A DNA stretch of 40,230 nucleotides from Candidatus Eisenbacteria bacterium (GTDB taxonomy: Bacteria > Eisenbacteria > RBG-16-71-46 > SZUA-252). Within the stretch, counting starts at the first letter, position 1. Each line of letters opens with the position of its first letter. Position numbers and translations under genes: made by a program. The stretch spans positions 1 through 40,230 of the forward strand of contig DASTBC010000121.1 in NCBI GenBank assembly GCA_035712245.1. The letters run 5' to 3'. The notes under the pieces are model-generated. The model was not told the DNA's origin. It made no database searches and worked only from the letters and a program-made list of their open reading frames with translations. Below are positions 11,550 to 30,954 of the stretch, piece after piece.

Positions 11550-12392
11550 GTGGGGAAGCGCACGGAGGCATGGAGTCCGGAGCAGGTCGTCGAATCGGGA
11601 CGTGCGAGAGTTCTGATCCTGGTCGCCCATCCGGACGACGAGTGGCTGGGCGCGGGATCCCTCCTTCCCATCCTGCGCGACCGGTGGATCGTTCAGGTCA
11701 CGGACGGAGCCCCGCGGGACCTGAAGGACGCGCGGCGTCTCGGGTTTCGGGCGCGGGCCGAGTACGCCCGCGCCCGGCGCCGCGAGGCGCTCGCCGCCCT
11801 TCGCCATGCCGGCATTCCCCGGACGCGCAGGATCGAGCTCGGATTCGCCGACCAGGAAGTCGTTCTGGGACTCAAGGACCTGGTCCGCCAGCTTCAAGCC
11901 ATCCTGGAACGCCTCCGGCCCGACGTCGTCCTGACCCACTCGTACGAGGGCGGGCATCCCGATCACGACGCGATCTCGTTCGCCCTGGCGTTCGTGGCGC
12001 GCCGCATCGCGTGCGAGGGAGGCATCGCGCCGGAGCGGATCGAGATGGCGGGCTATCACTCGAGGGCGGACGGCGGAATGGAAGCGGGAGTGTTCCTCCA
12101 CCCCAACCTGGCGGCGCGCACCCGCCCGGAGGAACGCGTCCGCCTTCTCACGGCTCGGGAGCGAGCGAGGAAGCGGAACGCGCTCCGGCAGTTCGCGTCC
12201 CAGCGCTCCATGATCGACCTCTTCCCGCTCGAGACGGAGCGCTTCCGACAGGCTCCTCCGTACGACTTTCGCAGGCCGCCCCATCCGGGGAGCCTGCTCT
12301 ACGAGCGGCTCGCGCTCGGGCCCGGCGGGGACCGGTTCCGGCGAGAGGTCGAGAAGGTGCTCGCGATCGGACCCTCCTGGCGTGCCGCATGA
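11550..12392 (+). CDS. PIG-L family N-acetylsugar deacetylase
   Basis: This 280-residue zinc-dependent deacetylase of the LmbE/PIG-L fold removes acetyl from N-acetylglucosamine-type sugars in known members (PIG-L, MshB, BshB). The metal motif AHPDDE is at 26-31 and the second metal histidine is in HPDHD at 136-140. The GTG at 11550 has GGAGG 6 nt upstream and is preferred over GTG 11544, which is too close to the site. The stop overlaps the next gene's ATG (ATGA). The gene opens the rightward deacetylase-glycosyltransferase-exporter group, so a glycoconjugate intermediate is the likely substrate rather than a free metabolite. This is inferred from context only. Confidence 0.88.
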   Translation: MGKRTEAWSPEQVVESGRARVLILVAHPDDEWLGAGSLLPILRDRWIVQVTDGAPRDLKDARRLGFRARAEYARARRREALAALRHAGIPRTRRIELGFADQEVVLGLKDLVRQLQAILERLRPDVVLTHSYEGGHPDHDAISFALAFVARRIACEGGIAPERIEMAGYHSRADGGMEAGVFLHPNLAARTRPEERVRLLTARERARKRNALRQFASQRSMIDLFPLETERFRQAPPYDFRRPPHPGSLLYERLALGPGGDRFRREVEKVLAIGPSWRAA

Positions 12393-15443: not shown

Positions 15444-16331
15444 CTACCGCGCGTATCGCCGCGTCATCGCCGCGCAGAAGTCGGCGAACTCGGACACATC
15501 GCGCGGGGGGCTCGTGTGGTCCGGCTTCACGCCGCAGGACTCCGGGGTGAAGCAGAAGGTGAGCGTCACGTCGAAGTCCTCGAGCGCGCGCATCTGGCGG
15601 TCGAACCACGCGAGCGCGCCCGGGCGCAGACTGTCGGCCCAGCTCAGACCCGTGCGAAGGTGCCGCACGCCGAGCCGCTTCAGCCAGCGCGCCATGTCGT
15701 CGAGCCGCGGATCCTCGAAGTGGATCCACTGGCAGATTCCGAGGTCGGGCACGTGCCGCTCGAACTCGCGAAGCGCGAGCTTGGGCGTGCCGTCCTCCCG
15801 CAGGAGTCCCATGTAGAAGTGCCGGTAGTAGGACGATCCCTCCGCTTCACGGTGCCGCGTCGTCGCCGGCCACGCCTTCGGAAGGTCGTAGAGGCTGTAC
15901 CAGTGGACGCGGGGGCTCCGGCCGCGCAGGAGCTCCGCGGTGCGGCGGAGCCCGAACTCCTGCACCTCCTCGGCGCCGAAGGTGGACACCCCCACCTCCG
16001 AGATCCACACCGGGAGGTCGGTCACCGCGCGGACGGCGGCGAGACGCTCCGGCCACTCGTGAATCGACCAGTGATTCCAGTCGAGGGGGAATCCGTGCAC
16101 GGCCACCGCGTCGACGGAGTCGAGCGCGCCCTGCCGTTCCATGCGCCGGATGAACTCCGGATCGATGGGCGAGATGCCTCCGAGCACTCGGGTGAGCCGA
16201 GGCGCCTCGGATCGCACGGCGTCCGACGCCGCGCGCGCCATGCGCGAGAAGACCGCCCACTCGGGGTCGGCCTCGAAATCCCAGTGGGAGAGATTGTTGG
16301 GCTCGTTCCAGATCATCACGGAGTCGATCAC
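15444..16331 (-). CDS. GH-A clan glycosidase (beta-xylosidase/GH39-like) with circularly permuted domain order
   Basis: This 295-residue protein begins directly at what is normally the fourth barrel strand: VIDSVMIWNEPN, with acid/base Glu10. It continues through strands ending in ISEVG (nucleophile Glu112) and VHWYSLYD (~142-149). Only then come elements that open normal GH-A barrels: GVRHLRTGLSW (221-231), DVTLTFCFTP (254-263) and EFADFCAAMTRRYA (281-294), where it stops. In ordinary homologues RRYA-type helix ends run straight into the WNEPN strand, so the two halves are swapped and the set looks complete. The GTG has a perfect GGAGG 6 nt upstream and overlaps the nucleotidyltransferase stop (GTGA), which fixes the start. 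It probably cleaves or transfers a pentose or hexose unit within this pathway. Confidence 0.75.
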   Translation of the reverse strand: MIDSVMIWNEPNNLSHWDFEADPEWAVFSRMARAASDAVRSEAPRLTRVLGGISPIDPEFIRRMERQGALDSVDAVAVHGFPLDWNHWSIHEWPERLAAVRAVTDLPVWISEVGVSTFGAEEVQEFGLRRTAELLRGRSPRVHWYSLYDLPKAWPATTRHREAEGSSYYRHFYMGLLREDGTPKLALREFERHVPDLGICQWIHFEDPRLDDMARWLKRLGVRHLRTGLSWADSLRPGALAWFDRQMRALEDFDVTLTFCFTPESCGVKPDHTSPPRDVSEFADFCAAMTRRYAR

Positions 16332-17074
16332 GCCGCGCCTCCGTTCCCGTGCAGGTCGAGGTTCAGGAGCCCGATCGCCTCGCGGTATCCGTGGAGCGTT
16401 CCCACGTCGATGTAGACCGAGCCCGCGCGCACTCCGCGGGCGCTCCCGCCGCCCGCGAGGTAGGCGTTCACGAGCGTTCCGAAATACTCGTCTCTCGGCT
16501 CGCGCGTCTTCCAGAGCGCATGGAGCCGGTGGAGCACGTGTCCGGGCATCGTGAACGCGCCCCAGACCCACCCCGTGCGCGCGTCGGGGCACTTGACCTG
16601 CACTTCGAGCACGCGCGACGCGGCGTCGACGCGCACCGCGTCGAAGAGCTCGGGGTTCTCGACCGGGAAGAGGAGGAACGCGAGCTCGCCCTCGGGAAGC
16701 GAGGAGAGCCCGTGCTCGGGAAACCAGATCGTGTCCGGGAGCCCGACCGCGACGCGCTCCTCGTCGCCGATGAAGGGCGCGGCGCGAAAGATGGCGTCGC
16801 AGAGTCCGGCGGGCTCCGGCTGGACCGTGAAGCAGACGTGCGCCGGACCGATCCGGCCGCCGTAGTACTCCAGGATGTCCGATTTGCCCGGGGAGATGAC
16901 GAAGCACAGGCGCGTCACCCCGGCGAGGAGCATTCGCTCCACGAGGTATTCGCTCACCGCGCGGGGCCGCTCCACTCCCTGGTCGACGCGGCTTCCGACC
17001 GGCAGCAGCTCCTTCGAGAAGGCGAGCGGCTGGATCCGGCTCCCGGCCCCCGCCGCGGGAATGATGCCCCACAT
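16328..17074 (-). CDS. Sugar-phosphate nucleotidyltransferase
   Basis: This 248-residue protein has the nucleotidyltransferase start IIPAAGAGSRIQPLAFSKELLPVG, in which the glycine-rich loop and Arg bind the NTP phosphates. It resembles glucose-1-phosphate thymidylyl/uridylyltransferases (RmlA, GalU). A conserved VGLPDTIWFPEHGL segment supplies the base and metal contacts, and VYIDVGTLHGYREA closes the domain. It would activate a sugar-1-phosphate as an NDP-sugar for the glycosyltransferases around it; which nucleotide and sugar cannot be read from sequence. ATG lies 1 nt after the preceding gene's stop, with GGGAGGA inside that gene's 3' end. Confidence 0.85.
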   Translation of the reverse strand: MWGIIPAAGAGSRIQPLAFSKELLPVGSRVDQGVERPRAVSEYLVERMLLAGVTRLCFVISPGKSDILEYYGGRIGPAHVCFTVQPEPAGLCDAIFRAAPFIGDEERVAVGLPDTIWFPEHGLSSLPEGELAFLLFPVENPELFDAVRVDAASRVLEVQVKCPDARTGWVWGAFTMPGHVLHRLHALWKTREPRDEYFGTLVNAYLAGGGSARGVRAGSVYIDVGTLHGYREAIGLLNLDLHGNGGAA

Positions 17075-17075
17075 G

Positions 17076-18167
17076 TCAGGCTCCTCCCTCCCCGGCCACG
17101 GCGCCGGCCGATTCGAGCAGGGAGACGAGCTCCGAGGCGCGCCGGTCGGCGGTGTGCTGCGCGAGCGCGCGCCGGCGCGCCGCGTCTCCGATCGCGTCGG
17201 ACTCCGCGGGGCTCATGCGAAGCGCGCGCGCCACGTCCTCGGGGCCGTCGGCGAGGACGATCTCCGTTCCGGGCGTGAAGAACTCCTCCAGACCGCTCCA
17301 GCGATCCGTCAGAATCGCCGTCCCGCACGCCGCAGCTTCGAAGAGACGTCCCGAGGGGCAGTGTCCGGCCGCGAGCATGGGGCCCCGCGTGACGTTCAGC
17401 GTGAACCGGGACGAGCTGTAGAAGGCGGCGTGTTGCGGCGGTGGCACGTGACGGACATACCGGATGTTGGGCAGCCAGGGAAACTCGGCCGGATACTGGG
17501 ATCCTCCGAGGACGAAGCGGCACTCCGGGAGTCGCCGCGCGGGCTCGAGAAAGAGACGCTCGAGCGCCTCCTGCCGGTCCTCGGAGTACGTCCCCAGATA
17601 CGAGAGATCGCCTTCGAGGCGCGGGTCGCGCCGCGCGGGACGGTGCACGCACGGATCGACGCATCCATAGAGCGGCGCGACGCGACGGGCGCCGAGCCGT
17701 TCCCGGATCTCCTCCATCGCGGGCCCTCCCGCGTAGCTCAGGACGAGATCGAACGCCGCAAGCCCCTCGGAAGGGATGTACGCCACCGGCAGCCCCGTGC
17801 GAATCCTCTCGAGCGTCACGGGAGCGTCGAGATCGTAGAAGACGCGGGAGACCGAGCGGGGGGCCTGTCCCATCAGCGCGGCCGCTTCGATCGCGTCGGG
17901 ACAGTACGACGTGACCACGGCCACGTCCGCGGTCCGCAGGGACTCGACGGCCCGATCCCGCACCGAGTCCCACGAATCGTAGAGCGTGAGGGACGCGCCG
18001 GGGGGGTGGGGAAGGTCGCGGTGCTCTCCGTAATAGGGTGTGTCCCGCTCCAGGAACTCGACGGCGTGTCCCTGGGCGTCCAGAGCCCGGCACAGCCCCC
18101 TCCACAGCGTGGCGTGGCCGTTCCCCCAGGACGAGCTGATCGTGAGCCCGAACACCACGAGATTCAC
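17076..18167 (-). CDS. CgeB-like glycosyltransferase, first gene of the leftward operon
   Basis: This is a 363-residue GT-B-type protein. It starts NLVVFGLTISSSWGNGHAT, then FLERDTPYYGEHRDLP, YLGTYSEDRQ, SRFTLNVTRGPM and PSGRLFEAAACGTAILTDRWSG, the donor-site motif of the Glyco_trans_1_2/CgeB group. It is a clear paralogue of the rightward gene at 25286, sharing the SSWGNGHAT start, YLGTY-EDR and RLFEAAACGT segments. GTG is preceded by GGAGG at 8 nt. Two tandem 12-bp repeats abut the ribosome site. It leads an operon with the nucleotidyltransferase and glycosidase. Confidence 0.85.
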   Translation of the reverse strand: MNLVVFGLTISSSWGNGHATLWRGLCRALDAQGHAVEFLERDTPYYGEHRDLPHPPGASLTLYDSWDSVRDRAVESLRTADVAVVTSYCPDAIEAAALMGQAPRSVSRVFYDLDAPVTLERIRTGLPVAYIPSEGLAAFDLVLSYAGGPAMEEIRERLGARRVAPLYGCVDPCVHRPARRDPRLEGDLSYLGTYSEDRQEALERLFLEPARRLPECRFVLGGSQYPAEFPWLPNIRYVRHVPPPQHAAFYSSSRFTLNVTRGPMLAAGHCPSGRLFEAAACGTAILTDRWSGLEEFFTPGTEIVLADGPEDVARALRMSPAESDAIGDAARRRALAQHTADRRASELVSLLESAGAVAGEGGA

Positions 18168-18445: not shown

Positions 18446-19576
18446 ATGACAGAACGCCTCCAGACGGATCGCATGGGCCGGCCGATGACGTTTCTCATCG
18501 CCGGCGCCGCGGGCTTCATCGGAAGCCACCTGACGGAGCGCCTGCTCTCGCGCGGCCACACGGTGGTCGGGGTGGACAGCTTCATCACCGGAAGCTGGCG
18601 CAATCTCACTTCGCTGCTGGATCACCCGCGCTTCATCCTCCTGGAGCACGACGTCGTGGATCCCCTCGAGTGGGACGGCCCGCTCGACTGGATCCTCCAC
18701 TTCGCGAGCCCTGCGTCGCCGCCGAGGTACCAGCAGAACCCGATCCAGACGCTGCGCAGCAATGCCGAAGGAACGTACCGGCTGCTCGAGCTCGCGCGCG
18801 CGAAGCGCGCGCGCTTCCTCTTCGCGAGCACGAGCGAGGTGTACGGCGATCCGGCGCAGCATCCGCAGCGGGAGGATTACTGGGGAAACGTGAATCCGGT
18901 GGGCGCCCGGAGCATGTACGACGAGGCGAAGCGGTACGGGGAGGCCATGGTCGTGAACTACCACCGCGCGCGCGGCCTCCCGGTGCGCGTCATCCGGATC
19001 TTCAACACCTATGGTCCGCGCATGCGTCAGGACGACGGCCGCGTCATCGTGAACTTCATCGGCCAGGCGCTGGCAGGACGTCCGCTCACCGTCTACGGCG
19101 ACGGAACCCAGACGAGGAGCTTCCAGTTCATCGACGACCTGGTGGAGGGAGTCTGCCGTGTCCTGCGCACGAACTACTCGCAGCCCATCAACCTCGGCAA
19201 CCCGGAGGAGTGCTCGATGCTCGAGCTGGCCAAGATCGTGCGCGAGCTGACGGGGAGCGATTCCTTGATCACGTACGAGCCCCTTCCGAAGGACGACCCC
19301 AAGCGGCGGCGTCCCGACATCTCGCTGGCCTCGTCGATTCTCGACTGGAGTCCCCGGTCCTCGCTGCGCGAGGGGCTCGCGGCGACGATCCGGTACTTCC
19401 AGGCGCTGATCGGGCTGGACGCGCTCCGCCCGGAGCCGGCGGCCTCGCCGGGCGCGGGCCCCATCGCGGGAGAGGAACTCGCGCAGGGGGCCGGAGGCTT
19501 CCCGGCCGCGCGGGGCCACGCTCGCGGCAGGAACGGATCGGCATGGCCCGCGCGCCCCCGCGGGAGTCAGACATGA
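18446..19576 (+). CDS. UDP-glucuronate decarboxylase (UDP-xylose synthase)
   Basis: This NAD-dependent extended SDR converts UDP-glucuronate to UDP-xylose, supplying a pentose donor. It has the Rossmann motif GAAGFIGSH, then ASTSEVYGDPAQHPQ, YWGNVNPVGARSMYDEAKRY (Tyr-x-x-x-Lys catalytic pair) and RIFNTYGPRM. This combination is diagnostic of the UXS family. The start is uncertain: ATG 18446 gives 376 residues with a GGGGGAG directly against it. ATG 18473 and 18485 are closer to the usual family N-terminus, and 18356 is also open. A ~45-residue Ala/Gly/Arg-rich C-terminal tail follows the normal fold. First gene of a seven-gene overlapping operon. Confidence 0.92.
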   Translation: MTERLQTDRMGRPMTFLIAGAAGFIGSHLTERLLSRGHTVVGVDSFITGSWRNLTSLLDHPRFILLEHDVVDPLEWDGPLDWILHFASPASPPRYQQNPIQTLRSNAEGTYRLLELARAKRARFLFASTSEVYGDPAQHPQREDYWGNVNPVGARSMYDEAKRYGEAMVVNYHRARGLPVRVIRIFNTYGPRMRQDDGRVIVNFIGQALAGRPLTVYGDGTQTRSFQFIDDLVEGVCRVLRTNYSQPINLGNPEECSMLELAKIVRELTGSDSLITYEPLPKDDPKRRRPDISLASSILDWSPRSSLREGLAATIRYFQALIGLDALRPEPAASPGAGPIAGEELAQGAGGFPAARGHARGRNGSAWPARPRGSQT

Positions 19577-20694
19577 GCGCGGAGCGCGTCCTCATCACCG
19601 GCGGCGCCGGCTTCATCGGTTCCCACCTCGCCGATCATCTCCTCGCGCGAGGGCACCGCGTGCGCGCGCTCGATTCGCTCGTGCCGCAGGTGCACGGGGA
19701 GAGCGGAACGCGTCCGTCCTATCTCCATCCGGACGTGGAGCTCCTCACGGGCGACGTGCGCGATCCGGTGGTCGTGCGCCGCGCGCTCACGGGGGTGGAC
19801 TCCGTCGTGCACCTCGCCGCACGGGTGGGCGTGGGTCAGAGCATGTACCAGATCGCGGAGTACGTGTCCGCGAACGACATGGGATCCGCCGTGCTCCTCG
19901 AGGCGATCGCGGCGCACCCCGTGCGGCGCCTGGTCACCGCCTCGAGCATGAGCGTGTACGGGGAAGGGCTCTATGCCGACCCGGCCGGCAACCCCGTCGA
20001 GCATGCGGAGCGGGGTTTGGAGTCGCTCCGGCGAGGCGAGTGGGAGGTCACGGACTCCGGGGGATCCCCGCTCCGTCCGGTTCCGACGCCCGAGACGAAG
20101 CGGCCGGCCCTGAGCTCGGTCTACGCGCTCACGAAGTACGACCAGGAGCGGCTCGCGCTGCTGATCGGGAGCGCCTACGGCGTTCCGTCGATCGCGCTCC
20201 GCCTGTTCAACGTGTACGGCACGCGCCAGGCGCTCTCGAACCCGTACACCGGCGTGCTCGCGATCTTCGCGGCCCGCCTCCTGAACGGGAAGCCCCCCGT
20301 GGTGTTCGAGGACGGCCTCCAGCGCCGCGACTTCGTCCATGTCGCGGACGTGGCGCGCGCCATCCGGCTCGCGCTCGAAGCGCCGGAGACGGTTTCGGGC
20401 GTGTTCAACGTCGGGAGCGGCGCGTCGGTGACGGTGCTCGAGATCGCCGGGCGGCTCGCCGAAGCGCTCGGACGCACGGGACCGGACCCCGAGATCACGG
20501 GGCAGTATCGGGTGGGCGACATCCGGCACTGCTTCGCGGACATCACGAAGGCGAGGGAGGTGCTCGGCTACGAGCCCGAAACGCCCATGGACCGGGGGCT
20601 CGAGGATCTCGCGAGGTGGCTCGAGCGGGAACAGGCCTCCGACCTCGTCTCCGAGGCGCGCGAAGAGCTCGCGACGCGCGGGCTCACGTTTTGA
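19573..20694 (+). CDS. NAD-dependent sugar epimerase/dehydratase (dTDP-L-rhamnose 4-epimerase-like)
   Basis: This 373-residue extended SDR has Rossmann motif TGGAGFIGSH, catalytic Tyr/Lys in SVYALTKYDQE, and RLFNVYGTRQALSNPYTGV followed by FEDGLQRRDFVHVADVA. A long insert with YGEGLYADP, a GEWE segment and PVPTPETK before the Tyr motif matches what I recall of dTDP-L-rhamnose 4-epimerases and close relatives. A UDP-glucose or UDP-glucuronate 4-epimerase is the alternative. Its start overlaps the decarboxylase stop (ATGA). The C-terminus ends in a charged helix. Confidence 0.82.
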   Translation: MSAERVLITGGAGFIGSHLADHLLARGHRVRALDSLVPQVHGESGTRPSYLHPDVELLTGDVRDPVVVRRALTGVDSVVHLAARVGVGQSMYQIAEYVSANDMGSAVLLEAIAAHPVRRLVTASSMSVYGEGLYADPAGNPVEHAERGLESLRRGEWEVTDSGGSPLRPVPTPETKRPALSSVYALTKYDQERLALLIGSAYGVPSIALRLFNVYGTRQALSNPYTGVLAIFAARLLNGKPPVVFEDGLQRRDFVHVADVARAIRLALEAPETVSGVFNVGSGASVTVLEIAGRLAEALGRTGPDPEITGQYRVGDIRHCFADITKAREVLGYEPETPMDRGLEDLARWLEREQASDLVSEAREELATRGLTF

Positions 20695-21827
20695 CGCAGC
20701 GGTCGGGAAACGGCTCGGATCCGGACGGGACCGCCGCGCGCGGACGCCCCGCGGTGCCGGCGGATCGCGACGGTCCGATTCTCGTGACCGGGGGGGCCGG
20801 ATTCGTCGGCGCGAACCTCTCCGACAAGCTCCTTCGTGAAGGACGCGACGTGATCGTGCTGGACGCGTTCGTTCGCGAGGGCGTCGAGGCGAACGCGCGC
20901 TGGCTCACGCGGCGGCATGGCGGCCGGGTCCGATTCGTCCGCGGTGACGTGCGCGACGCGCGCCTCGTCGGGGAAGCGGCGCGGGGAGCCGCCGCGGTCT
21001 TCCACTTCGCGGCGCAGGTCGCGGTCACCACGAGCCTCGCGGACCCCGCGGACGACTTCAGCGTGAACGTGGGAGGAACGCTGAACGTGCTCGAAGCGCT
21101 CCGGCGCGACCCCGACCCGCCGCCCTTCTTCCTCACGTCGACGAACAAGGTGTACGGGTGCTTGGGAGAGGTCTCGCTCCATGCGCGAGGCGAGCGCTAC
21201 GTGCCGGATCGGCCCGCGCTCGCGGAGCGCGGCATCGGGGAGGACGCTCCGCTCGACTTCCGCACGCCGTACGGGTGCTCCAAGGGCGCCGCCGACCAGT
21301 ACACGCTCGAGTACGCGCGCTCGTTCGGGCTCCCGGCGGTGGTCTTCCGGATGAGCTGCATCTACGGGCCGCGCCAGTTCGGAACCGAGGATCAGGGATG
21401 GGTCGCGCACGTCGCGCTCTGCGCGCTCCACGAGAGGCCGCTCACCATCTACGGAGACGGGATGCAGGTGCGGGATCTCCTCTTCGCCGAGGATCTCGTG
21501 GACGCGTTCCTGCTCGCCTGGCAGCACGCGGGAAGGCTCCGCGCGCGCGCGTTCAACCTCGGCGGCGGTCCGGCGAACGTCATGAGCCTTCTCGAGCTCG
21601 TGCGCCTCCTGGAGGAGCGGGGAGCGCGCCCGGGGCCGGTTCGGTTCGACGCCTGGAGGCCCGGCGACCAGAAGTACTACGTCTCGGACACGACGTCCTT
21701 CCGGTCGGAGACCGGATGGTCCCCCCGCGTGGGGGTGGGGGAAGGGCTCGACCGGCTCTGCCGCGCGCTCGAAGAACAGGCGGCGGACGAGCCCGAAGCG
21801 ACGGCGGCCCTGGGGGCGAACGGATGA
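20691..21827 (+). CDS. CDP-paratose/tyvelose 2-epimerase-like NDP-sugar epimerase
   Basis: This 378-residue extended SDR has VTGGAGFVGANLSDKLL at ~30-50, the catalytic Tyr-x-x-x-Lys in TPYGCSKGAADQY, and the STNKVYG and YGPRQFGTEDQGWVAH motifs characteristic of CDP-paratose 2-epimerase (RfbE/TyV) relatives. Those enzymes invert C2 of a CDP-dideoxyhexose; whether the local substrate is CDP- or UDP-linked is unknown. TTG is chosen as start because it overlaps the upstream stop (TTGA), as at every other junction in this operon. It adds a ~25-residue polar leader. GTG 20753 is the alternative. Confidence 0.82.
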   Translation: MTQRSGNGSDPDGTAARGRPAVPADRDGPILVTGGAGFVGANLSDKLLREGRDVIVLDAFVREGVEANARWLTRRHGGRVRFVRGDVRDARLVGEAARGAAAVFHFAAQVAVTTSLADPADDFSVNVGGTLNVLEALRRDPDPPPFFLTSTNKVYGCLGEVSLHARGERYVPDRPALAERGIGEDAPLDFRTPYGCSKGAADQYTLEYARSFGLPAVVFRMSCIYGPRQFGTEDQGWVAHVALCALHERPLTIYGDGMQVRDLLFAEDLVDAFLLAWQHAGRLRARAFNLGGGPANVMSLLELVRLLEERGARPGPVRFDAWRPGDQKYYVSDTTSFRSETGWSPRVGVGEGLDRLCRALEEQAADEPEATAALGANG

Positions 21828-22924
21828 GCCTCCGGGTCCTCGTCACGACCGATACCGTGGGCGGCGTCTGGACGTTCGCGATGGAGCTCGCCTCCACGCT
21901 GAGCCGCGCCGGATTCGACATCGAGCTCGCCACGATGGGCGGACCGGTCTCCGGCTCGCAGCGCGCCCAGGCCGAGAGGATCCCCCGGCTGCGCCTTCAC
22001 GAGAGCCTCTACCGCCTGGAGTGGATGGAGGAGAGCTGGCTCTCGGTGACCGAGGCGGGTGAGTGGCTCCTCGATCTGGAGCGCCGCCTCGCTCCGGACC
22101 TCATCCACCTGAACGGCTACGTGCACGCGGCGCTGCCATGGCGCGCCCCCGTCGTGGTGACGGCGCACTCGTGCGTCCTCTCCTGGTGCCGTGCCGTCCA
22201 CGGCGACGTGGCGCTACCGGCCTGGGACCGGTACGCCGACGAGGTCCGCCGCGGCGTCCAGGCGGCGCGGATCCTCGCGGCGCCGACGCGCGCCATGCTC
22301 GACGAGATCGCGATCCACTATGGCGAGCCCGCGGAGGGCCGCGTGATCCCGAACGGGAGGACCCCGCACGGGTTCACGAGCGGAACGAAGGGGCGCCGGA
22401 TCCTGACCGTCGGACGCGTCTGGGACGAGGCCAAGAACATCCTGGCGCTCGACCGGGTGGCGTCGGACCTCGACTGGCCCGTCCTGGTGGCGGGATCCCG
22501 CCGTCATCCGGACGGGGGCACGGTCGCCCTGCGCGCCGCGAAGAGCCGGGGTGTTCTCGGTCCCGAGGAGCTCGCGAGCGCGTACGCGTCCGCGTCCATC
22601 TTCGCGCTTCCCGCGCTCTACGAGCCCTTCGGCTACGCGCCGCTCGAGGCGGCGCTCTCGGGATGCGCGCTCGTGCTCGGCGACATCCCGAGCCTGCGCG
22701 AGGTGTGGGGCGACGCGGCGTGCTTCGTTCCTCCGCGGGACGAACGGGCGCTCCTCCACGCGCTTCGCCGGCTCATCGCGGAGCCGCGTGTTCGCAAGGA
22801 GTACGCGAGGCGAGCGCGCGCACGCGCCATGGAGTACACCCCCGAGCGGATGACGATCGGGTACATGGAGGCGTACCGGGACGCGCTCGAGGATCCCCTC
22901 GAGCTCCTCGGAGTCCGGGCGTGA
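21824..22924 (+). CDS. GT4-family glycosyltransferase
   Basis: This 366-residue GT-B enzyme has N-terminal TTDTVGGVWTFAMELASTL, then HLNGYVHAALPWRAPVVVTAHS in the acceptor half. The donor half has LTVGRVWDEAKN and the GT4 donor motif ALYEPFGYAPLEAALSGCALVLGDIP. The EPFGxxxLEA pattern with its glutamates is the canonical GT4 nucleotide-sugar site. ATG overlaps the epimerase stop by 4 bp. It is probably an early step in building the glycan, followed by the three CgeB-like enzymes downstream. Confidence 0.88.
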   Translation: MSLRVLVTTDTVGGVWTFAMELASTLSRAGFDIELATMGGPVSGSQRAQAERIPRLRLHESLYRLEWMEESWLSVTEAGEWLLDLERRLAPDLIHLNGYVHAALPWRAPVVVTAHSCVLSWCRAVHGDVALPAWDRYADEVRRGVQAARILAAPTRAMLDEIAIHYGEPAEGRVIPNGRTPHGFTSGTKGRRILTVGRVWDEAKNILALDRVASDLDWPVLVAGSRRHPDGGTVALRAAKSRGVLGPEELASAYASASIFALPALYEPFGYAPLEAALSGCALVLGDIPSLREVWGDAACFVPPRDERALLHALRRLIAEPRVRKEYARRARARAMEYTPERMTIGYMEAYRDALEDPLELLGVRA

Positions 22925-24111
22925 GCGCCCTCGCGGACAGGAGCGCCGGCGCCGCGGAGCGCTCCGGCCGCGCGCTTCGGTTCGTCTGGTTCGTCCACTC
23001 GCTGCGCTCCGACTGGAATCACGGAAACGCGCACTTCCTGCGCGGGGTCATCTTCGAGCTCGGCCGCCGCGGCCACGAGGCCGACGTCTACGAGCCCGAG
23101 GGGGCTTGGAGCCTGGCGCAGCTCCTCGAGGAGCACGGACCCGCCGCGGTGAAGGCCTTCGAAAGCGCTTACCCGGGCCTTCACAGCAGGACGTACCGTC
23201 TCGAGGGGATCGACCTCGACCGGGTCCTGGACGGCGCCGACGTGGTGATCGTGCACGAGTGGAACGACCCGGCGCTCCTACGCAGGCTCGGGGACGCACG
23301 GAGGCGCATGCCGTCGCTCCGCCTCTTCTTCCACGACACGCATCATCGCGCCGTCACGAAACCCGAGGAGATCGGGCAGCTCGACCTCTCGGAGTTCGAC
23401 GGCGTGCTCGCGTTCGGTCGGATCCTGAGCGATCACTACCGGGACCGGGGATGGACGCGGGCGGCATGGACGTGGCACGAGGCCGCGGATCCGCGCGTGT
23501 TCCGTCCTCATCCGGGCGTGGAGCGGAGCGAGGACCTCGTGTGGATCGGCAACTGGGGAGATGGCGAACGCGCGCGTGAGCTTTCCGAGTACCTGCTCGG
23601 CCCCGCCCGCGCGCTCGGGCTCCGCGCGACCGTGTACGGCGTGCGCTACCCGGACGAGGCGCGCCGCGCCCTCGACGAGGCCGGGATCCGGTATCGCGGG
23701 TGGCTCCCGAACTTCGAGGCGCCGGCGGTCTTCGCGCGCCACAAGGCGACCGTGCACGTTCCCCGGTGGCCGTACGCACGCGCCCTCCCGGGCATTCCGA
23801 CGATCCGCGTCTTCGAGGCGCTGGCCTGCGGGATCCCGCTCGTGTGCGCCCCGTGGGAGGACGCGGAAGGACTCTTCACGCCGCACCGCGACTACGAGGT
23901 CGCGCGAAGCGGCGCCCGGATGCGGGAGCGGCTCCGGGAGCTGATCCACGAGCCGGAGCGCGGCGCTGCGCTCGCGGAACACGGGCTCGCGACGATCCGG
24001 AGCCGGCACACGTGCGCGCATCGCGTGGACGAGCTTCTCTCGATCGTACGGGAGACCTCCGGGACGCCCGGGCGCGCCACCGCCGCGGCGGACGCGGAGG
24101 CTCGCGCATGA
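22921..24111 (+). CDS. CgeB-like glycosyltransferase
   Basis: This 396-residue protein has, after a ~20-residue polar leader, RFVWFVHSLRSDWNHGNAHF, equivalent to the SSWGNGHA start of its paralogues. It continues with VDVYEPEGAWS-type early motifs, VWIGNWGDGERARE, YRGWLPNFEAPAVFARHKAT and the donor-site IRVFEALACGIPLVCAPWED. It is the most divergent of the four CgeB-like genes here. GTG overlaps the GT4 stop. The product would transfer a sugar, but the family has little biochemistry: CgeB itself modifies the Bacillus spore surface. Confidence 0.8.
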   Translation: MSALADRSAGAAERSGRALRFVWFVHSLRSDWNHGNAHFLRGVIFELGRRGHEADVYEPEGAWSLAQLLEEHGPAAVKAFESAYPGLHSRTYRLEGIDLDRVLDGADVVIVHEWNDPALLRRLGDARRRMPSLRLFFHDTHHRAVTKPEEIGQLDLSEFDGVLAFGRILSDHYRDRGWTRAAWTWHEAADPRVFRPHPGVERSEDLVWIGNWGDGERARELSEYLLGPARALGLRATVYGVRYPDEARRALDEAGIRYRGWLPNFEAPAVFARHKATVHVPRWPYARALPGIPTIRVFEALACGIPLVCAPWEDAEGLFTPHRDYEVARSGARMRERLRELIHEPERGAALAEHGLATIRSRHTCAHRVDELLSIVRETSGTPGRATAAADAEARA

Positions 24112-25289
24112 GCGCCCCGCGGTCCTTCGCGTTCTTCGGCTCGAGCCTCGTCTCGTCCTACTGGAACGGAGCGGCCACGTACTACCGGGGGCTGATCCGG
24201 GCCCTCCACGAGCTCGGTCATCGCGTCACGTTCTACGAGCCGGACGCCTATGGACGGCAGCAGCATCGAGACATCGACGACCCGCCGTGGGCGCGGGTGA
24301 TCGTGTATCCGCCCACCGAGGCCGCCGCCGCCCAGGCGCTGGAGTCGGCGCGAGGCAGCGACGTGCTCGTGAAGACGAGCGGCGTGGGCGTGCTCGATGC
24401 GTTCTTGGAATCCGCGGTTCTCGACCGCGCGCGGGCCGGGGCGCTCGTCGGGTTCCTCGACGTCGACGCCCCCGCCACGCTCGAGCGAGTGGAGCGGACT
24501 CCGAACGATCCGTTCCGCGGGCTGGTGCCCCGCTATGACTTCGTCTTCACGTACGGGGGCGGCGCCCCCGTCGTGCGCGCGTACACGGCGCTCGGCGCGA
24601 GGGTCTGCGTCCCCATCTACAACGCGCTCGATCCCGACACGCACCATCCCGTCCCGCGCGAGCCGCGGTTCGAATCCGACCTCGCCTTCCTGGGGAATCG
24701 GCTTCCGGACCGCGAGCATCGCGTGGACGAGTTCTTCTTCCGCTGCGCGCGCCGCATGCCCTGGCGGCGGTTCCTCCTCGGCGGGAGCGGGTGGGAGGGG
24801 AAGCCTCTCCCGAACAACGTGACCTGGATCGGACACGTCCCCACGGCGGATCACAACGCGCTCAACGTCACGCCGCTCGCGGTCCTCAACGTGAGCCGGG
24901 ACAGCATGGCCCGGTTCGGATTCTCGCCGGCGACGCGCGTCTTCGAAGCCGGGGGGGCGGGAGCGTGCCTGGTCACCGATGCGTGGGAGGGGATCGAGCT
25001 CTTCCTCGAGCCGGGACGCGAGGTGCTCGTGGCGTCTTCCGGAGAGGATGTGGCCGATCACCTCCGCTCGCTCGCGCCGGAGCGCGCGCGAGAGATCGGA
25101 CGGGCGGCGCGACGGCGGGTTCTGGCCGAGCACACCTACGCCCGCCGCGCGCGCGAGGTCGAGGCGGTGCTGGACGGCCGCCTGGGATCGCGCGAGGCAG
25201 CGCCGGGTTTCGCGGCCGATCCCCAGGTCACGAGCGCGCCGGTCACGAGCGGGCCCACCACCGCCGCGCCCGCGACGCGGCTGCCATGA
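24108..25289 (+). CDS. CgeB-like glycosyltransferase
   Basis: This is a 393-residue protein. Its start FAFFGSSLVSSYWNGAATYYRG aligns with the other CgeB-like genes, then VTFYEPDAYGRQQHRD, GFLDVDAPATLERV and FVFTYGGGAPVVRAY. The donor region is RVFEAGGAGACLVTDAWEGI. The VDAPVTL/TYxGG motif pair is shared with the genes at 17076 and 25286. The last ~35 residues are an Ala/Thr/Pro-rich tail with a repeated VTSGPTT-like composition, likely disordered. ATG overlaps the upstream stop. Confidence 0.82.
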   Translation: MSAPRSFAFFGSSLVSSYWNGAATYYRGLIRALHELGHRVTFYEPDAYGRQQHRDIDDPPWARVIVYPPTEAAAAQALESARGSDVLVKTSGVGVLDAFLESAVLDRARAGALVGFLDVDAPATLERVERTPNDPFRGLVPRYDFVFTYGGGAPVVRAYTALGARVCVPIYNALDPDTHHPVPREPRFESDLAFLGNRLPDREHRVDEFFFRCARRMPWRRFLLGGSGWEGKPLPNNVTWIGHVPTADHNALNVTPLAVLNVSRDSMARFGFSPATRVFEAGGAGACLVTDAWEGIELFLEPGREVLVASSGEDVADHLRSLAPERAREIGRAARRRVLAEHTYARRAREVEAVLDGRLGSREAAPGFAADPQVTSAPVTSGPTTAAPATRLP

Positions 25290-26398
25290 CCCGGGACCGG
25301 CTCCGCATCGTCATCCTCGGGCTCTCGATCACCTCGTCGTGGGGGAACGGGCACGCGACCACCTACCGCGCGCTCGTGAAGGGGCTCGCCCGCCGCGGGC
25401 ACGACGTCCTCTTCCTCGAGCGGGACGTGCCGTGGTACGCATCGCAGCGAGACCTCGACCGGCCGCCGTACGGGCACACCGTCCTCTACGATTCACTCGA
25501 GGATCTCGAGAGACGGCACGAGGGGAACGTGCGGGACGCCGATCTCGTGATCGTGGGATCGTACGTGCCCGACGGCATTGCCGTGGGCGAGTGGGTGCTG
25601 CGCGTCGCGCGCGGCACGCGCGCGTTCTACGACATCGACACGCCGGTCACGCTCGCCCTCCTCGAGCGCGGCGCCTCGGAGTACCTGACGCCGGCTCTCG
25701 CGCGGCGGTACGACCTCTACCTCTCGTTCACCGGCGGGCCGACGCTGGATCGCCTCGCGCGGGAGCACGGCGTGGAGCGGGCGCGTCCCCTCTACTGCTC
25801 GGTGGACCCCGAGCTGTACCGTCCGACGCGCGAGGAGCCGCGATGGGATCTCGGCTATCTCGGCACCTACGCCGAGGACCGGCACGCGGGGCTCTGCCGC
25901 CTCCTGCTCGACCCCGCGAAGCAGTGGACGCAGGGGAGGTTCATCGTCGCCGGTCCCCAGTACCCGGAAACCATGGCATGGCCCCCGAACGTCGAGCGGA
26001 CGCACCACGTCGCTCCGTGCGATCACGCCCGCTTCTACGGCAGGCAGCGGTTCACCCTGAACCTCACGAGGGCCCCCATGATCGAGGCCGGGTACTCGCC
26101 CAGCGTGCGGCTCTTCGAGGCGGCCGCCTGCGGGACGCCCATCGTGAGCGACCGCTGGGCGGGGCTCGAGGAGGTGCTCACGCCCGGCCGGGAGATCCTG
26201 ATCGCCGAAGGGTCCGGTGACGTTCTCGGCATGCTGCGCGAGCTTCCCGAAGCGCGAAGGCGCGAGATCGGAGAGGCGGCGCGGGACCGCGTGCTCCGGT
26301 CTCACACGGGGGAGCACCGCGCGGACCAGCTCGCGGGCTACGTGCGCGAGGTCGTGCCCCGGGGCTCGAGTCCCGCGGCGTCCCCGTCCGCTTCGTAA
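25286..26398 (+). CDS. CgeB-like glycosyltransferase, last gene of the rightward operon
   Basis: This 370-residue protein is clearly paralogous to the leftward gene at 17076. Shared segments are LSITSSWGNGHATTYRA, DIDTPVTLALLERG, YLSFTGGPTLDRL, YLGTYAEDRHAG, FTLNLTRAPM and RLFEAAACGTPIVSDRW. It ends with a Ser/Pro/Ala tail whose last 61 bp overlap the oppositely directed Gfo/Idh/MocA gene. ATG overlaps the previous stop. Confidence 0.86.
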   Translation: MTRDRLRIVILGLSITSSWGNGHATTYRALVKGLARRGHDVLFLERDVPWYASQRDLDRPPYGHTVLYDSLEDLERRHEGNVRDADLVIVGSYVPDGIAVGEWVLRVARGTRAFYDIDTPVTLALLERGASEYLTPALARRYDLYLSFTGGPTLDRLAREHGVERARPLYCSVDPELYRPTREEPRWDLGYLGTYAEDRHAGLCRLLLDPAKQWTQGRFIVAGPQYPETMAWPPNVERTHHVAPCDHARFYGRQRFTLNLTRAPMIEAGYSPSVRLFEAAACGTPIVSDRWAGLEEVLTPGREILIAEGSGDVLGMLRELPEARRREIGEAARDRVLRSHTGEHRADQLAGYVREVVPRGSSPAASPSAS

Positions 26399-27492
26399 GC
26401 GAGGTCGAGCAGCTCCGCCACGTTCGTGAGGCGCTCCGCCTCCTCGTCGAATCGCGGCGACCGCGCGAGACGGGTGGCCCAGTTCGTCACCGCCGCGCCC
26501 TGCCAGTCCCGCGAAGGCTCCGCGAGAGTCTCCCGCGACGTGCCGCGGAAGCGCTCCACCGTGAAGTCGTAGAACGAGCCGTTCCGGTTCGTCCACGCCG
26601 CGCCCCCCTCGGTTCCAAAGACGGAGAGCCCGATCACGGCGTCCTGTCCCGCGGGCAGGTTCCAGGAGCACGCGATGCGAATCACGGCGCCCGATGCGAG
26701 GTCGATCTCGACCAGAGCCTGATCCTCGACCCGGTCCCGGCGGCCGTGGAGGCGCTCCCCCTTCGCGTGAAGCCGGCTCGTCACGCGGCGCGGATCGGGG
26801 AAGTCGAGGAGCCACGCGCTCAGGTCGAGGAGGTGGATGCCGAGGTCCATGAGACATCCGCCTCCGGCGCGTGCGGGGTCGTAGAACCAGGGCTTGTCGG
26901 GTCCGTACGCGTTGTGGAACACCGCGTCCACGAGGACGGGCCGACCCAGCGCCCCCGAGCGCACGAGATCCCGCATCTCCCGCATCCCGCGCACGTGCCG
27001 GTAGCAGAGGTCCGTTCCGAGGAGCCTGTCCCGGAGGCGCGCCTCGCGGACCACCGCCGCCGTCTCCGCGGCGTTCCGTCCGAGAGGCTTCTGGCAGAAG
27101 ACCGCCATCCCGCGGCTCAGGAACGCGAGGCACTGCTCCGCGTGGAGCGCGCTCGGCGTCGCGATGACGACCCCATCCAGATCCGCCTCGAAGAGGAGCG
27201 CGGGATCGTCGCTGTAGGCCGCGTCGCGGCACGAGCACCGCGCGTCGCGCGCGCGGCCGAGCGAGGAGTCCACGACGCACGCGATCTCGGCCTTGCCGCT
27301 CCTCGCGACCGCTTCCAGCCGGTTCTGACCGATCCATCCGACGCCGAGGAATCCAAGGCGGGGGAGGGCGCGTGGTGCCGGCCCCCGGCTCCCGTCGAGC
27401 TCGCTCGAGGCGGGAGCCCCGCGGGGCCACGTGCCGAAACGCCCCGCGCCGGAGGGCGGCGCGCCCATTCCCTGCGTCCGTGCCGCGCTCAT
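26338..27492 (-). CDS. Gfo/Idh/MocA-family sugar oxidoreductase
   Basis: This 384-residue protein has a ~40-residue disordered leader before the NAD(P) motif LGFLGVGWIGQNRL. Conserved landmarks are VIATPSALHAEQ, the cofactor/substrate Lys in CQKPLGRN (Gln replaces the usual Glu of EKP) and GGGCLMDLGIHLLD, which carries the catalytic Asp and His. The family oxidises or reduces a ring carbon of sugars, NDP-sugars or inositols. ATG overlaps the zinc dehydrogenase stop. Its 3' end overlaps the convergent glycosyltransferase by 61 bp. Paired with the adjacent dehydrogenase, it fits a keto-sugar or cyclitol oxidation/reduction step. Confidence 0.87.
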   Translation of the reverse strand: MSAARTQGMGAPPSGAGRFGTWPRGAPASSELDGSRGPAPRALPRLGFLGVGWIGQNRLEAVARSGKAEIACVVDSSLGRARDARCSCRDAAYSDDPALLFEADLDGVVIATPSALHAEQCLAFLSRGMAVFCQKPLGRNAAETAAVVREARLRDRLLGTDLCYRHVRGMREMRDLVRSGALGRPVLVDAVFHNAYGPDKPWFYDPARAGGGCLMDLGIHLLDLSAWLLDFPDPRRVTSRLHAKGERLHGRRDRVEDQALVEIDLASGAVIRIACSWNLPAGQDAVIGLSVFGTEGGAAWTNRNGSFYDFTVERFRGTSRETLAEPSRDWQGAAVTNWATRLARSPRFDEEAERLTNVAELLDLAYEADGDAAGLEPRGTTSRT

Positions 27493-28496
27493 GCCGAGAC
27501 CACCGCTTTCAGGAAGGACTCCGGCCTCGTGTGGATCGCATCGAGCGCGCCACCGAGCTCGGAGAGGGAGAACCGGTGCGTGACGAGGAACCGGTGGTCG
27601 AGCGCGCCCGAACGCACGGCCTCGACGCCGAGCCGCATCCCTTCGATGTAGACCTCGGGTCTTCGCTCGTGCGCGTTGATCACGTCGATGCCCCGCCAGT
27701 TCCACGTCTGCATGTCCACCCGCCTCGGCCCGTCCTGGTGGTAGCCGGCGATCACCAGCCGCCCCCCTTCGGCCGTGAGCGCGGTCGCGAGATCGAGTCC
27801 CTCCTGGTGGCCGACGGCCTCGAGCACGCGGTCGCAGCCGCGGCCGCGCGTCGCCTCGAGGATCGACGCCGCCGCGGAACCGTCCATCGGGATGGTCTCG
27901 GTGGCGCCGCAACGGCGGGCGATGTCGCGCGCGAAGGCGCGGCGCGAAACCGCGAAGACCCGCGCTCCCGTGCGGGACGCGAGCTGGACCAGGAGCGCAC
28001 CGAGGAATCCCACGCCGATCACCGCCACGTCCTGTCCGGGACGGACGTCCGACCGGCGGAACACGTTCATGGCGCACCCGAGCGCTTCGCCCGGAAGCGG
28101 ATCGTCGTCGAGCTCGGGAGGCAGCGGAACGACCGAGGGGGCCTTCGCGACGTCGTACTCGGCGAACGCGCGATACGACAGGAGCGTCACGCGCGCGCCG
28201 ACCTCGAGCTCCTCGACGTCCTCGCCGAGAGCCTCGATGCGCCCCCATCCCTCGTGCCCGGGCGCACCGGGCTCGCAGGGATACTGGAACCACGCTCGCC
28301 CTTCCCACAGGGCGCCGTGGGAGCCACAGACGCCGCTTCCTTCGAGCCTCACCAGGACCTCTCCGGGTCCAGGCTCCGGCCGATCGACACGGAGAACGGA
28401 CGCGCTTCGCGGTCCCTGGATCTGCGCGGCCCACATGGTGCCGCGCGCGGGCGCCGCGGGAGCGGAGGCGCGCTTCGATCGGGTCACGGGCTTCAT
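27489..28496 (-). CDS. Zinc-dependent medium-chain alcohol dehydrogenase
   Basis: This is a 335-residue MDR enzyme. Catalytic zinc ligands are visible as Cys in SGVCGSH, His-Glu in PGHEGWG, and probably Cys in GEALGCAMN. The NAD-binding motif is VAVIGVGFLGALLVQLA. The four-cysteine structural zinc loop of classical alcohol dehydrogenases is missing, as in several sugar and cyclitol dehydrogenases. A 20-residue basic leader precedes MWAAQIQGP, which could be an internal start. Start and stop overlap both neighbours by 4 bp (ATGA), so it is tightly co-expressed with the Gfo/Idh/MocA enzyme and the 600-residue protein. Confidence 0.88.
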   Translation of the reverse strand: MKPVTRSKRASAPAAPARGTMWAAQIQGPRSASVLRVDRPEPGPGEVLVRLEGSGVCGSHGALWEGRAWFQYPCEPGAPGHEGWGRIEALGEDVEELEVGARVTLLSYRAFAEYDVAKAPSVVPLPPELDDDPLPGEALGCAMNVFRRSDVRPGQDVAVIGVGFLGALLVQLASRTGARVFAVSRRAFARDIARRCGATETIPMDGSAAASILEATRGRGCDRVLEAVGHQEGLDLATALTAEGGRLVIAGYHQDGPRRVDMQTWNWRGIDVINAHERRPEVYIEGMRLGVEAVRSGALDHRFLVTHRFSLSELGGALDAIHTRPESFLKAVVSA

Positions 28497-30295
28497 GCCA
28501 CGCGCTCCCTCTGCTCGAGGCCGGTTCCGAGGAGGCGCAGGAGCGTCTCCCGCCATCGCTCGAGCGCGCGCTCGAGGATCTCGCGCTCGAGCGGATCCCG
28601 CTCCGCCTCCGCGAAGAACCGGCACTGGCCGAGCCGGTGCGCCGCATAGGCCACGAGATATCCGGGGAGACACGCGCCGGCGCGAAGCCCCGAGCGCGCT
28701 TCGAGGTCCGCGACGAACGCGGCCGCGCGCTCTCCGGGGAGATCCCATTCGAGGATGGTGCCCGCCACGTCCCAGGGCAGGGGCTGACGTCCGACCCACG
28801 TGTGGTCGAGATCGTGTCCGCCCGCGTCCGTCTTCACGAGCCGCCCCTCCGGCGTGCGGATCCACTCGTGCGGCGCCATGCGTCCGTCGCCCGCGGCGGG
28901 CATGTGGCGCCCGGGGGCGCCGCTTCCCTCGAGGATGTCGAGCGCGGCGGACGCACTGTCGCGATCGAGCGCCTCCGCCACGTTCACGCGCACCATGTCG
29001 GTGAGGCGCCGCCTCGCGTCGCGCGCCTCGCGCGGCGGCAGCGGCCCGCGAGCGGACGCCACGAGATACGCGGACACGCACGCGAGCGCCTCGGACGGAG
29101 CGTCCGAGCTCGTGCACGGCACGCCGGCAATCCAGTCGGTCGCGACGAACCCCAGCGAGACCCCGAGCGGGGCGGAGACCCACCCGTGCCGTGCGAGCTC
29201 CGAGAGGCGCCGGGCGGCCGCGTCCGCCATGGAGGCGCGCCCTCGAGGGGCGGTGGCGAGTCCCGCGTACTTGAAGAGGACGCGCCTTCCGCTCGCGCCC
29301 GTCACGAGGAGCTTGGGCCGCTCGAGCGCGCGGATCACGGCGGGCCATTGCGACGGGGCTTGGAACAGGAGCGCCCGCCAGGCGCCGTGGCTCCAATCCT
29401 CGCACGGGCCGGGCTCGTCGCCACGCAGGGCTTCGATTCCTCCCCAGAGCGCCTGCGCGAGGCCGGGCACGCCTCCCTCGGGCGCGCCGTGCCCCGCGAC
29501 GTACGAGGCGTGCGATCGGAAGCGCCGTCGAGCCGAGGCGGACGCGGCGATGCCGGGTCCCGCCGCGTGCGCGGGAACGAAGTCGATGGAGGCGGGGTCG
29601 ATCCCGGACGAACGCAGCATGTCCGCCGCGGCGAGCATCGACGAGCCGGAAAGGCCCGGGCCTTCGTCCACGACGATTCCGCGCGACGCGGGCGGCACGC
29701 GCCCCTCCACGCGCCGCGCGAGGGGATGCCCCACGGGACGCGCCGTCTCCCGCCGCGCGCGGAAGCCGCGGGCACGGAGCGCGGCGGCCACGACCGCGGA
29801 CAGCGTGGTCCCGATGCTGCGCACCCCGAGCACGAGCACGTCGCGTTCGGCGTCCTCCTCGTGCTCCTCGGCCCAGCGCCGGGCGCAGGCGCGATAGGAG
29901 TCCGGAAGGAGGCAGTAGTACGCGAATCCTTCCGGAATCCGGACGAGGAGCGACTCCTGCGAGGGAGGGACGAGCGCGAGAAACCGGCGCGCACGGCGAA
30001 GGTCCTCGCGGGCGCGCCGCGCCGCCCGAGGATCCACGGGGTCCGAACCGAGGAGGCGCTCGAACGCATCGGCCGCGGCGTCCGACGCCGCCCGGGCCGC
30101 GCGCGCCGGGCCGTCCGGCGCCTCCGCACCGCTCGATGCGTCCTGGAGCGCCTGCTCGATCTCGCCGAGATGGATCAGCGCTCGTCGAACGGCTTCGCAA
30201 CCCGGCTCGCCGATCGCGAGATCGATCTCGAAGCACGCGTTCTCGAGCGCGTGGCGGCGCGACACCTCCCGGACCGCGTCTCCGTACACGATCAT
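28493..30295 (-). CDS. Two-part protein: phosphoribosyltransferase-like domain plus kinase-like (APH-type) region
   Basis: This is a 600-residue protein of unknown function. Residues 115-250 look like a type I phosphoribosyltransferase: PEGFAYYCLLPDSY, then VLVLGVRSIGTTLSAVVAAA (pyrophosphate-loop position), then IVVDEGPGLSGSS at 207-219, which matches the PRPP-binding loop. Residues ~320-600 resemble an aminoglycoside-phosphotransferase-type kinase: VLFKYAGL (lysine lobe), WIAGVP, GDGRMAPHEW (469-478) where a catalytic loop would lie, and KTDAGGHDLDH (488-498) where the metal Asp would lie. Residues 1-110 are helical and unrecognised. I recall similar conserved hypothetical proteins but no assigned function. 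It is coupled to a histidine phosphatase upstream and the dehydrogenase downstream. Confidence 0.65.
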   Translation of the reverse strand: MIVYGDAVREVSRRHALENACFEIDLAIGEPGCEAVRRALIHLGEIEQALQDASSGAEAPDGPARAARAASDAAADAFERLLGSDPVDPRAARRAREDLRRARRFLALVPPSQESLLVRIPEGFAYYCLLPDSYRACARRWAEEHEEDAERDVLVLGVRSIGTTLSAVVAAALRARGFRARRETARPVGHPLARRVEGRVPPASRGIVVDEGPGLSGSSMLAAADMLRSSGIDPASIDFVPAHAAGPGIAASASARRRFRSHASYVAGHGAPEGGVPGLAQALWGGIEALRGDEPGPCEDWSHGAWRALLFQAPSQWPAVIRALERPKLLVTGASGRRVLFKYAGLATAPRGRASMADAAARRLSELARHGWVSAPLGVSLGFVATDWIAGVPCTSSDAPSEALACVSAYLVASARGPLPPREARDARRRLTDMVRVNVAEALDRDSASAALDILEGSGAPGRHMPAAGDGRMAPHEWIRTPEGRLVKTDAGGHDLDHTWVGRQPLPWDVAGTILEWDLPGERAAAFVADLEARSGLRAGACLPGYLVAYAAHRLGQCRFFAEAERDPLEREILERALERWRETLLRLLGTGLEQRERVA

Positions 30296-30954
30296 CGGAG
30301 CCCCGGGATCGCCGCGTCGGGCGCGCGCAGGACCCTCGACCGGACGATCCGTCCGTGGCCGGGCTCCGGGCCCTCGTTCATCGCGACCACGCGCCACGTG
30401 CCGCCCTCGTGCACGAGCGTGCTGACGGAGGCCGGATCGACGTCGAAGCGGGGCAGGTGGTCCAGGTCGGTTCCCAGGGCGCTCGCGAGGACCGCCTTGA
30501 TGACATCGCCATGGCTCACGAGGATGATGGTTTCCCCGAGATGATCCCGACGGAGTCGATCGGCCGCGGTGAGCACCCGCTCGCGGACTTCCCGCATGGA
30601 CTCGCCTCCGGGGACCGGAGCCTCGCCCCGCGCCGTGTGGAACCGGGTCCACGCGGGATCGGCCGCGAGGTCATCGAACGCGCGCCCGGTCCAGGCTCCG
30701 AAGTCGATCTCGGTGAGCTCCGGCAGCACCTGGGGCGTGCATCCGTTCGCGCGCGCGATCGCGGCGGCGGTCTCCATGCAGCGCTCGAGCGGACTCGTGT
30801 AGAGCCGGTCGATGCGCGCTCCCGCGAGCCACGTTCCCAGCCGGCGCGCCTCGAGCGCGCCGCGCGCGTTCAACGACACGCCCGGCATGCGGCCGGCGAG
30901 CCGGGCCCCCAGGAGATCGTGCGAGGCGTGGCGGACCCAGAGGAAGGCCGTCAT
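30292..30954 (-). CDS. Histidine phosphatase family protein
   Basis: This 220-residue cytosolic protein has the phosphohistidine motif as RHASHD (the family's usual RHG with Gly changed to Ala). It also has LYTSPLERCMETAA, EIDFGAWTG and the second catalytic His in ILVSHGDVIKAVL. Members remove phosphate from sugars, nucleotides or cobalamin precursors. It heads the second leftward operon and its stop overlaps the 600-residue protein's start (ATGA), so it may dephosphorylate that protein's product. Start ATG 30954 is chosen; ATG 30966 four codons upstream is equally open, and neither has a strong ribosome site. Confidence 0.88.
   Translation of the reverse strand: MTAFLWVRHASHDLLGARLAGRMPGVSLNARGALEARRLGTWLAGARIDRLYTSPLERCMETAAAIARANGCTPQVLPELTEIDFGAWTGRAFDDLAADPAWTRFHTARGEAPVPGGESMREVRERVLTAADRLRRDHLGETIILVSHGDVIKAVLASALGTDLDHLPRFDVDPASVSTLVHEGGTWRVVAMNEGPEPGHGRIVRSRVLRAPDAAIPGLR

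Follow-up and report, generated by a model that had tools for sequence, protein, structure and literature searches.

A fusion protein with predicted phosphoribosyltransferase-type and choline kinase-type folds, encoded in a glycan gene cluster conserved across bacterial phyla

What is the role of a 600-residue protein that belongs to no named family, is encoded among sugar genes and appears to join two different enzyme folds in one chain? The question is raised by a gene located in the window, by which we mean the whole stretch of 40,230 nucleotides of Candidatus Eisenbacteria DNA analysed here (Table 1). The gene forms a single unbroken frame on the minus strand, at the coordinates given in a preliminary description of this DNA; the plus strand across the same positions is likewise open, and homologues were found for the minus-strand protein only. 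It is part of an ATGA-coupled operon: its start overlaps the stop of the histidine phosphatase gene (30292-30295) and its stop overlaps the start of the zinc dehydrogenase gene (28493-28496), both by exactly 4 bp as previously noted, and a third 4-bp ATGA overlap links the zinc dehydrogenase and Gfo/Idh genes, provided that the ATG at 27492 is the start. The window protein gave no Pfam match even at E 10, no NCBIfam match above cut-off and no PADLOC match. Comparison of 18 family members with NCBIfam and Pfam returned scattered chance-level matches only, except for one Choline_kinase match (E 0.11, one member), which fits the evidence on the second half presented below.

Table 1. Features of the fusion gene and its neighbourhood (window coordinates; residues are those of the fusion protein).
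Feature	Position	Strand	Basis
Putative PRTase-kinase fusion protein, 600 aa, no named family	28493..30295	-	Open frame; 18 full-length homologues aligned
N-terminal helical region, residues 1-108	29972..30295	-	Alignment; helices in low-confidence model
Predicted type I phosphoribosyltransferase-fold domain, residues 108-262	29510..29974	-	AF2 model of residues 106-300; fold search
G-x-R-S-x-G, putative pyrophosphate-loop equivalent, residues 156-163	29807..29830	-	18/18
R-P-x-G-x-P-x-x-R, conserved loop between strands, residues 186-194	29714..29740	-	Alignment
DEGPGLSGSS, putative PRPP-loop equivalent, residues 210-219	29639..29668	-	Invariant, 18/18
Predicted choline-kinase/APH-fold domain, residues 300-600	28496..29398	-	LicA by profile and fold search
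Altered catalytic loop D470-G-R472-M-A-P-H-E477-W ... K488-T-D490	28826..28888	-	Gap-free against LicA HIDLVPENF...LID
Histidine phosphatase (branch 1), upstream neighbour, 4-bp overlap	30292..30954	-	PF00300, E 1.5e-51
Zinc-dependent dehydrogenase, downstream neighbour, 4-bp overlap	27489..28496	-	PF00107
Gfo/Idh/MocA oxidoreductase	26338..27492	-	PF01408
GT4-type and three CgeB-like glycosyltransferases (PF13524), convergent neighbours	21824..26398	+	Pfam; synteny
UDP-xylose-synthase-like SDR and two NAD-dependent sugar epimerases/dehydratases	18485..21827	+	NCBIfam; synteny
Beta-xylosidase-like protein, nucleotidyltransferase, fourth CgeB-like glycosyltransferase	15444..18167	-	Sequence, NCBIfam, PF13524 (glycosyltransferase)

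The fusion gene is present in a single copy in the window's genome, and among the 58 relatives searched only one genome of the same family (G004) carries another copy, at 48% identity. Homologues at about 31% identity are found on the Acidobacteria contigs QHVR01000128.1 and JAICJP010000096.1, and about 90 plasmid records contain a homologue. Most of these are pSymB-type replicons of Sinorhizobium, including that of S. meliloti 1021, the other carriers being Rhizobium, Ensifer, Ciceribacter, Azospirillum and Roseomonas. In 89 of 90 plasmid matches the alignment spans 80% or more of the Azospirillum query, so both halves travel as one protein. A Comamonadaceae protein matching the C-terminal part only was considered as a single-domain relative and rejected, since it looks like a decayed fragment; on the plasmid concerned (CP099606.1, L023 14046-14312) this short C-terminal remnant, probably a decayed copy, lies beside a UDP-glucose dehydrogenase gene. 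No relative of the fusion protein was detected in the viral contigs searched, those homologues that are annotated bear the label 'hypothetical protein', and literature searches with locus tags and family names returned nothing relevant to the family. The alignment used below comprises 18 full-length members with 27-48% identity to the window protein, most of which begin with M-[IL]-V-[YF]-G-D.

The preliminary description had proposed that the sequence IVVDEGPGLSGSS, found as claimed at residues 207-219, is the 5-phosphoribosyl-1-pyrophosphate (PRPP) loop of a type I phosphoribosyltransferase (PRTase). VDEGPGLSGSS is conserved throughout the alignment, and a relaxed motif of the DEGPGLSGSS type occurs once in the six-frame translation of the window (80,456 residues); this single occurrence, together with the invariance of DEGPGLSGSS in 18 homologues of such low identity, indicates that the motif is not a product of chance. 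Two further loops are conserved upstream: a G-x-R-x-x-G loop (G-x-R-S/T/N-x-G) found in every member, which by eye resembles the GIRRRG of the PyrR encoded in the window's genome, and a loop in which R186, P187, G189 and P191 are invariant. An AlphaFold2 model of residues 106-300, built from three sequences (pLDDT 65, pTM 0.62), was compared with PDB folds. The top match was PyrR of Mycobacterium tuberculosis (E 3e-3, probability 1.00), and type I PRTases accounted for 47 of the top 50 matches, as counted by reading the list. These model-based comparisons show in outline that the first half adopts a type I PRTase fold. The earlier proposal thus stands as regards the fold, but not as regards the strict PROSITE PRPP signature (PS00103), which none of the 18 members satisfies, all having Asp-Glu instead of [DE]-Asp and one extra residue. 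Note that about half of the PF00156 proteins from the relatives also fail PS00103, so this failure is compatible with membership of the PRTase family.

Sequence-level searches with the first half were negative: the Pfam PRTase models, including PF00156, matched none of the 18 members, a PDB sequence search with this half alone retrieved no match and hence no solved relative, and hhalign comparisons with alignments of PyrR, HPRT, PRPP synthase and APH proteins built from related genomes gave nothing significant, probably due to the shallowness of the profiles. In the combined PRTase alignment from the hhalign comparison both loops are in register. The Ter-associated PRTase_2 family (PF15609) was also considered and rejected as an explanation, as it has no match in the window's genome at E 1e-3. 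What the first half has in common with type I PRTases such as PyrR, HGPRT and XPRT is therefore the modelled fold, an acidic loop between a strand and a helix, and the G-x-R-x-x-G loop, whereas it differs from them in the lack of a PF00156 match, in its fusion to a kinase-fold domain, and in its loop, DE-GPGLS-G, which is one residue longer and has Glu as the second acid. It could be argued from the missing profile match and from the family-wide invariance of Asp-Glu and the extra loop residue that the fold uses a different donor or ligand in place of PRPP, for instance a pathway intermediate such as a sugar phosphate or cyclitol phosphate; however, the family agrees with PRPP enzymes in the position of the loop, in the strand and helix on either side of it and in the pyrophosphate-type loop, and we regard this alternative as quite improbable. 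We infer instead that the first half binds PRPP; the window's genome also codes for a PRPP-synthetase-like protein (locus L044).

For the second half, a profile search against all PDB sequences gave the choline kinase LicA as the best match (E 0.0058), and the full-length profile aligned collinearly with LicA. A fold search with a low-confidence full-length model (three sequences, pLDDT 42) was led by glucosamine kinase and LicA with probabilities of 0.84 to 0.99 (0.96-0.99 for LicA), followed by many phosphoribosyltransferases. Profile and model together thus point, in outline, to a choline-kinase/APH fold, with no PF01636 or PF01633 match above cut-off in this half. Each half consequently resembles the fold anticipated in the preliminary description, the first by fold comparison and the second by fold and profile, although searching the halves separately by profile gave LicA for the second half and yielded no significant PRTase match for the first. 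The segments FKYAGL, GDGRMAPHEW and KTDAGGHDLDH, previously quoted as APH-like landmarks, are all present. With LicA and the APH-fold small-molecule kinases the second half shares the collinear profile alignment, the fold match, a beta3-type Lys (K342, invariant in 18/18) and an Asp at the DFG position (D490, 18/18), the Asn-to-Asp spacing of 13 being retained. It departs from them in its catalytic loop: no member has HxDxxxxN, the HxD catalytic Asp falls on position 472, which is Arg in 17 members and His in one, and the metal-binding Asn is replaced by E477 in all 18. The kinase-like character of this half accordingly holds for the overall fold and not for the canonical catalytic residues. 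Assignment as a choline kinase was rejected, the likeness to LicA being one of fold only.

Kinase activity of the second half is doubtful given the missing HxD Asp, and its loop represents either an unusual active loop or a non-catalytic domain. Were it the latter, the domain would be a pseudokinase that binds the acceptor or serves as a scaffold, leaving catalysis to the PRTase half alone. The near-universal Arg and the universal Glu at the two key positions speak for such a role. However, W478 is the same in all 18 members, and so are D470, E477, K488, D490, H494 and H498; the invariance of these last six exceeds what is expected for a dead site and favours a functional one, where Mg could still be held by E477 and D490, and we consider a pseudokinase unlikely. 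The reverse arrangement is about equally unlikely in our estimation. Here the PRTase-fold half would only sense PRPP, as does the PRTase-like PurR of Bacillus, and control an ATP-using half that phosphorylates a cyclitol or sugar. The non-canonical PRPP loop, the retention of the fusion in full-length members and the invariant K342 and D490 would be in keeping with a regulated kinase, but a half devoid of the HxD Asp is less likely to be the main catalyst, and three separate conserved PRTase loops seem more than a sensor needs. In plants, fusions of uracil phosphoribosyltransferase (UPRTase) and uridine kinase unite PRTase and kinase activities in a single chain, the kinase being a P-loop enzyme. 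A comparable nucleotide-salvage enzyme, unrelated to the glycan cluster, would have the same two activities by name, and some copies of the fusion gene indeed lie away from any cluster. However, the Walker A motif is absent from all 18 members, the order of the halves and the kinase fold differ, and sugar genes are neighbours in distant groups, all of which makes a salvage function highly improbable.

The sugar-cluster context noted in the preliminary description was correct and proved much stronger than first seen, synteny being kept across phyla. Searches of 17 loci with the window genes (tblastn) revealed a common gene set in Acidobacteria, Rhizobiaceae, Azospirillum and Roseomonas, some of whose genes are lacking from some of the loci. 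It comprises a GT4-type and three CgeB-like glycosyltransferases, in an order common to Acidobacteria and rhizobia, two epimerases and a UDP-xylose-synthase-like enzyme, together with the Gfo/Idh oxidoreductase, zinc dehydrogenase, beta-xylosidase-like protein and histidine phosphatase. The alphaproteobacterial clusters add inositol-3-phosphate synthase, a TIGR04290 methyltransferase, and a TIGR04295 radical SAM protein or a pyruvyl transferase. The rhizobial and Acidobacterial cluster with the TIGR04290 methyltransferase and the TIGR04295 B12-radical SAM protein houses the fusion family, and literature searches found no paper on it; in contrast, no protein of the window's genome matches TIGR04290 above cut-off. 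In nearly all clusters a phosphatase gene adjoins or lies near the fusion gene. In the two Acidobacteria contigs the gene directly upstream of it encodes a PAP2-type phosphatase instead (L003 8871-9785 and L004 2381-3295, 96% identical to each other).

The preliminary description had also suggested that the protein performs a committed step, which is not borne out by all copies. G004 keeps the fusion and phosphatase genes without neighbouring glycosyltransferase genes, and two copies on Azospirillum plasmids (A. ramasamyi, L018 13665-15425; A. lipoferum, L019 11644-13458) have no glycosyltransferase cluster within 12-14 kb, nor was any other cluster gene detected near them by tblastn of the window genes. 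As to the product, the zinc dehydrogenase scores near the scyllo-inosose 3-dehydrogenase IolM (98 bits, well below cut-off), and the top NCBIfam model for the Gfo/Idh/MocA oxidoreductase is the inositol 2-dehydrogenase IolG (88 bits, below cut-off). Because inositol/inosose dehydrogenase models give both enzymes their highest or nearly highest scores, and in view of the neighbouring genes, the cluster probably makes a cyclitol-containing oligosaccharide. All nine genomes that were searched from the window's family have an inositol-3-phosphate synthase gene, and this gene is thus uninformative as a pathway link within this lineage.

Phosphoribosylation and dephosphorylation are paired in butirosin biosynthesis (BtrL/BtrP) and in cobalamin biosynthesis (CobT/CobC). 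The fusion gene shares with these pairs the proximity of a PRTase-type gene to a phosphatase gene; the window histidine phosphatase itself scores 165 bits with TIGR03848 (cut-off 203.85) and 122 bits with the CobC model (cut-off 162.9), below cut-off in both cases. By analogy, phosphoribosyl transfer followed by dephosphorylation is the scheme we prefer, although the histidine phosphatase could simply act on an inositol phosphate. In our leading explanation, which is a tentative one, the protein would be a fused enzyme of the conserved cyclitol/sugar oligosaccharide pathway. The type I PRTase domain would bind PRPP and transfer 5-phosphoribose to a pathway intermediate, at either a hydroxyl or an amine group, the acceptor probably being an inositol-derived cyclitol or its glycoside. 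The 5-phosphate would then be removed by the neighbouring phosphatase, i.e. the histidine phosphatase or, in the Acidobacteria loci, the PAP2 phosphatase, and the second half, with its rebuilt catalytic loop, may hold ATP-Mg or the acceptor and act on the same intermediate.

We count in favour of this explanation the PRTase fold matches and conserved loops, the LicA match with invariant K342, E477 and D490, the pathway neighbours and nearby phosphatase, the ATGA coupling and the PRPP-synthetase-like protein. Counted against it are the absence of a significant PRTase profile match, the failure of PS00103 in 18/18, the derivation of the folds from three-sequence models, the missing kinase catalytic Asp and the fusion copies without a cluster nearby. 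A bolder statement, possible if rather doubtful, is that this undescribed bifunctional family pairs a PRPP-dependent transferase with an ATP-using domain whose catalytic loop, with D-x-R-x4-E-W replacing HxDx4N, is new, and that the two together assemble a cyclitol glycan, ribosylated or phosphorylated, in soil bacteria and legume symbionts. We found neither a name nor a domain annotation nor a paper for the family, yet it resides in a cluster conserved between phyla, and one of its genes is carried by pSymB of S. meliloti 1021, the model symbiont of alfalfa, in which gene removal is routine. Working out its function would add a fusion enzyme to those known to use PRPP and would probably also show what a widespread but uncharacterised glycan cluster makes.

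Several further genes of these loci deserve mention. A PIG-L type deacetylase could be part of the pathway, as its gene is found in the window cluster (11700-12392) and, with 47% identity, directly downstream of the G004 copy on the opposite strand (L005 10632-11807). The rhizobial cluster is bordered by stress-type genes, DUF1003 and Hsp20 (L012 7439-7990; L013 7799-8353 and 26783-27259), and an Hsp20-like gene is located at 10393-11517 of the window; the cluster product may be stress-related. Finally, G004 has a separate APH-like kinase gene (L005 5612-6931), some 1.2 kb upstream of its paired histidine phosphatase and fusion genes.
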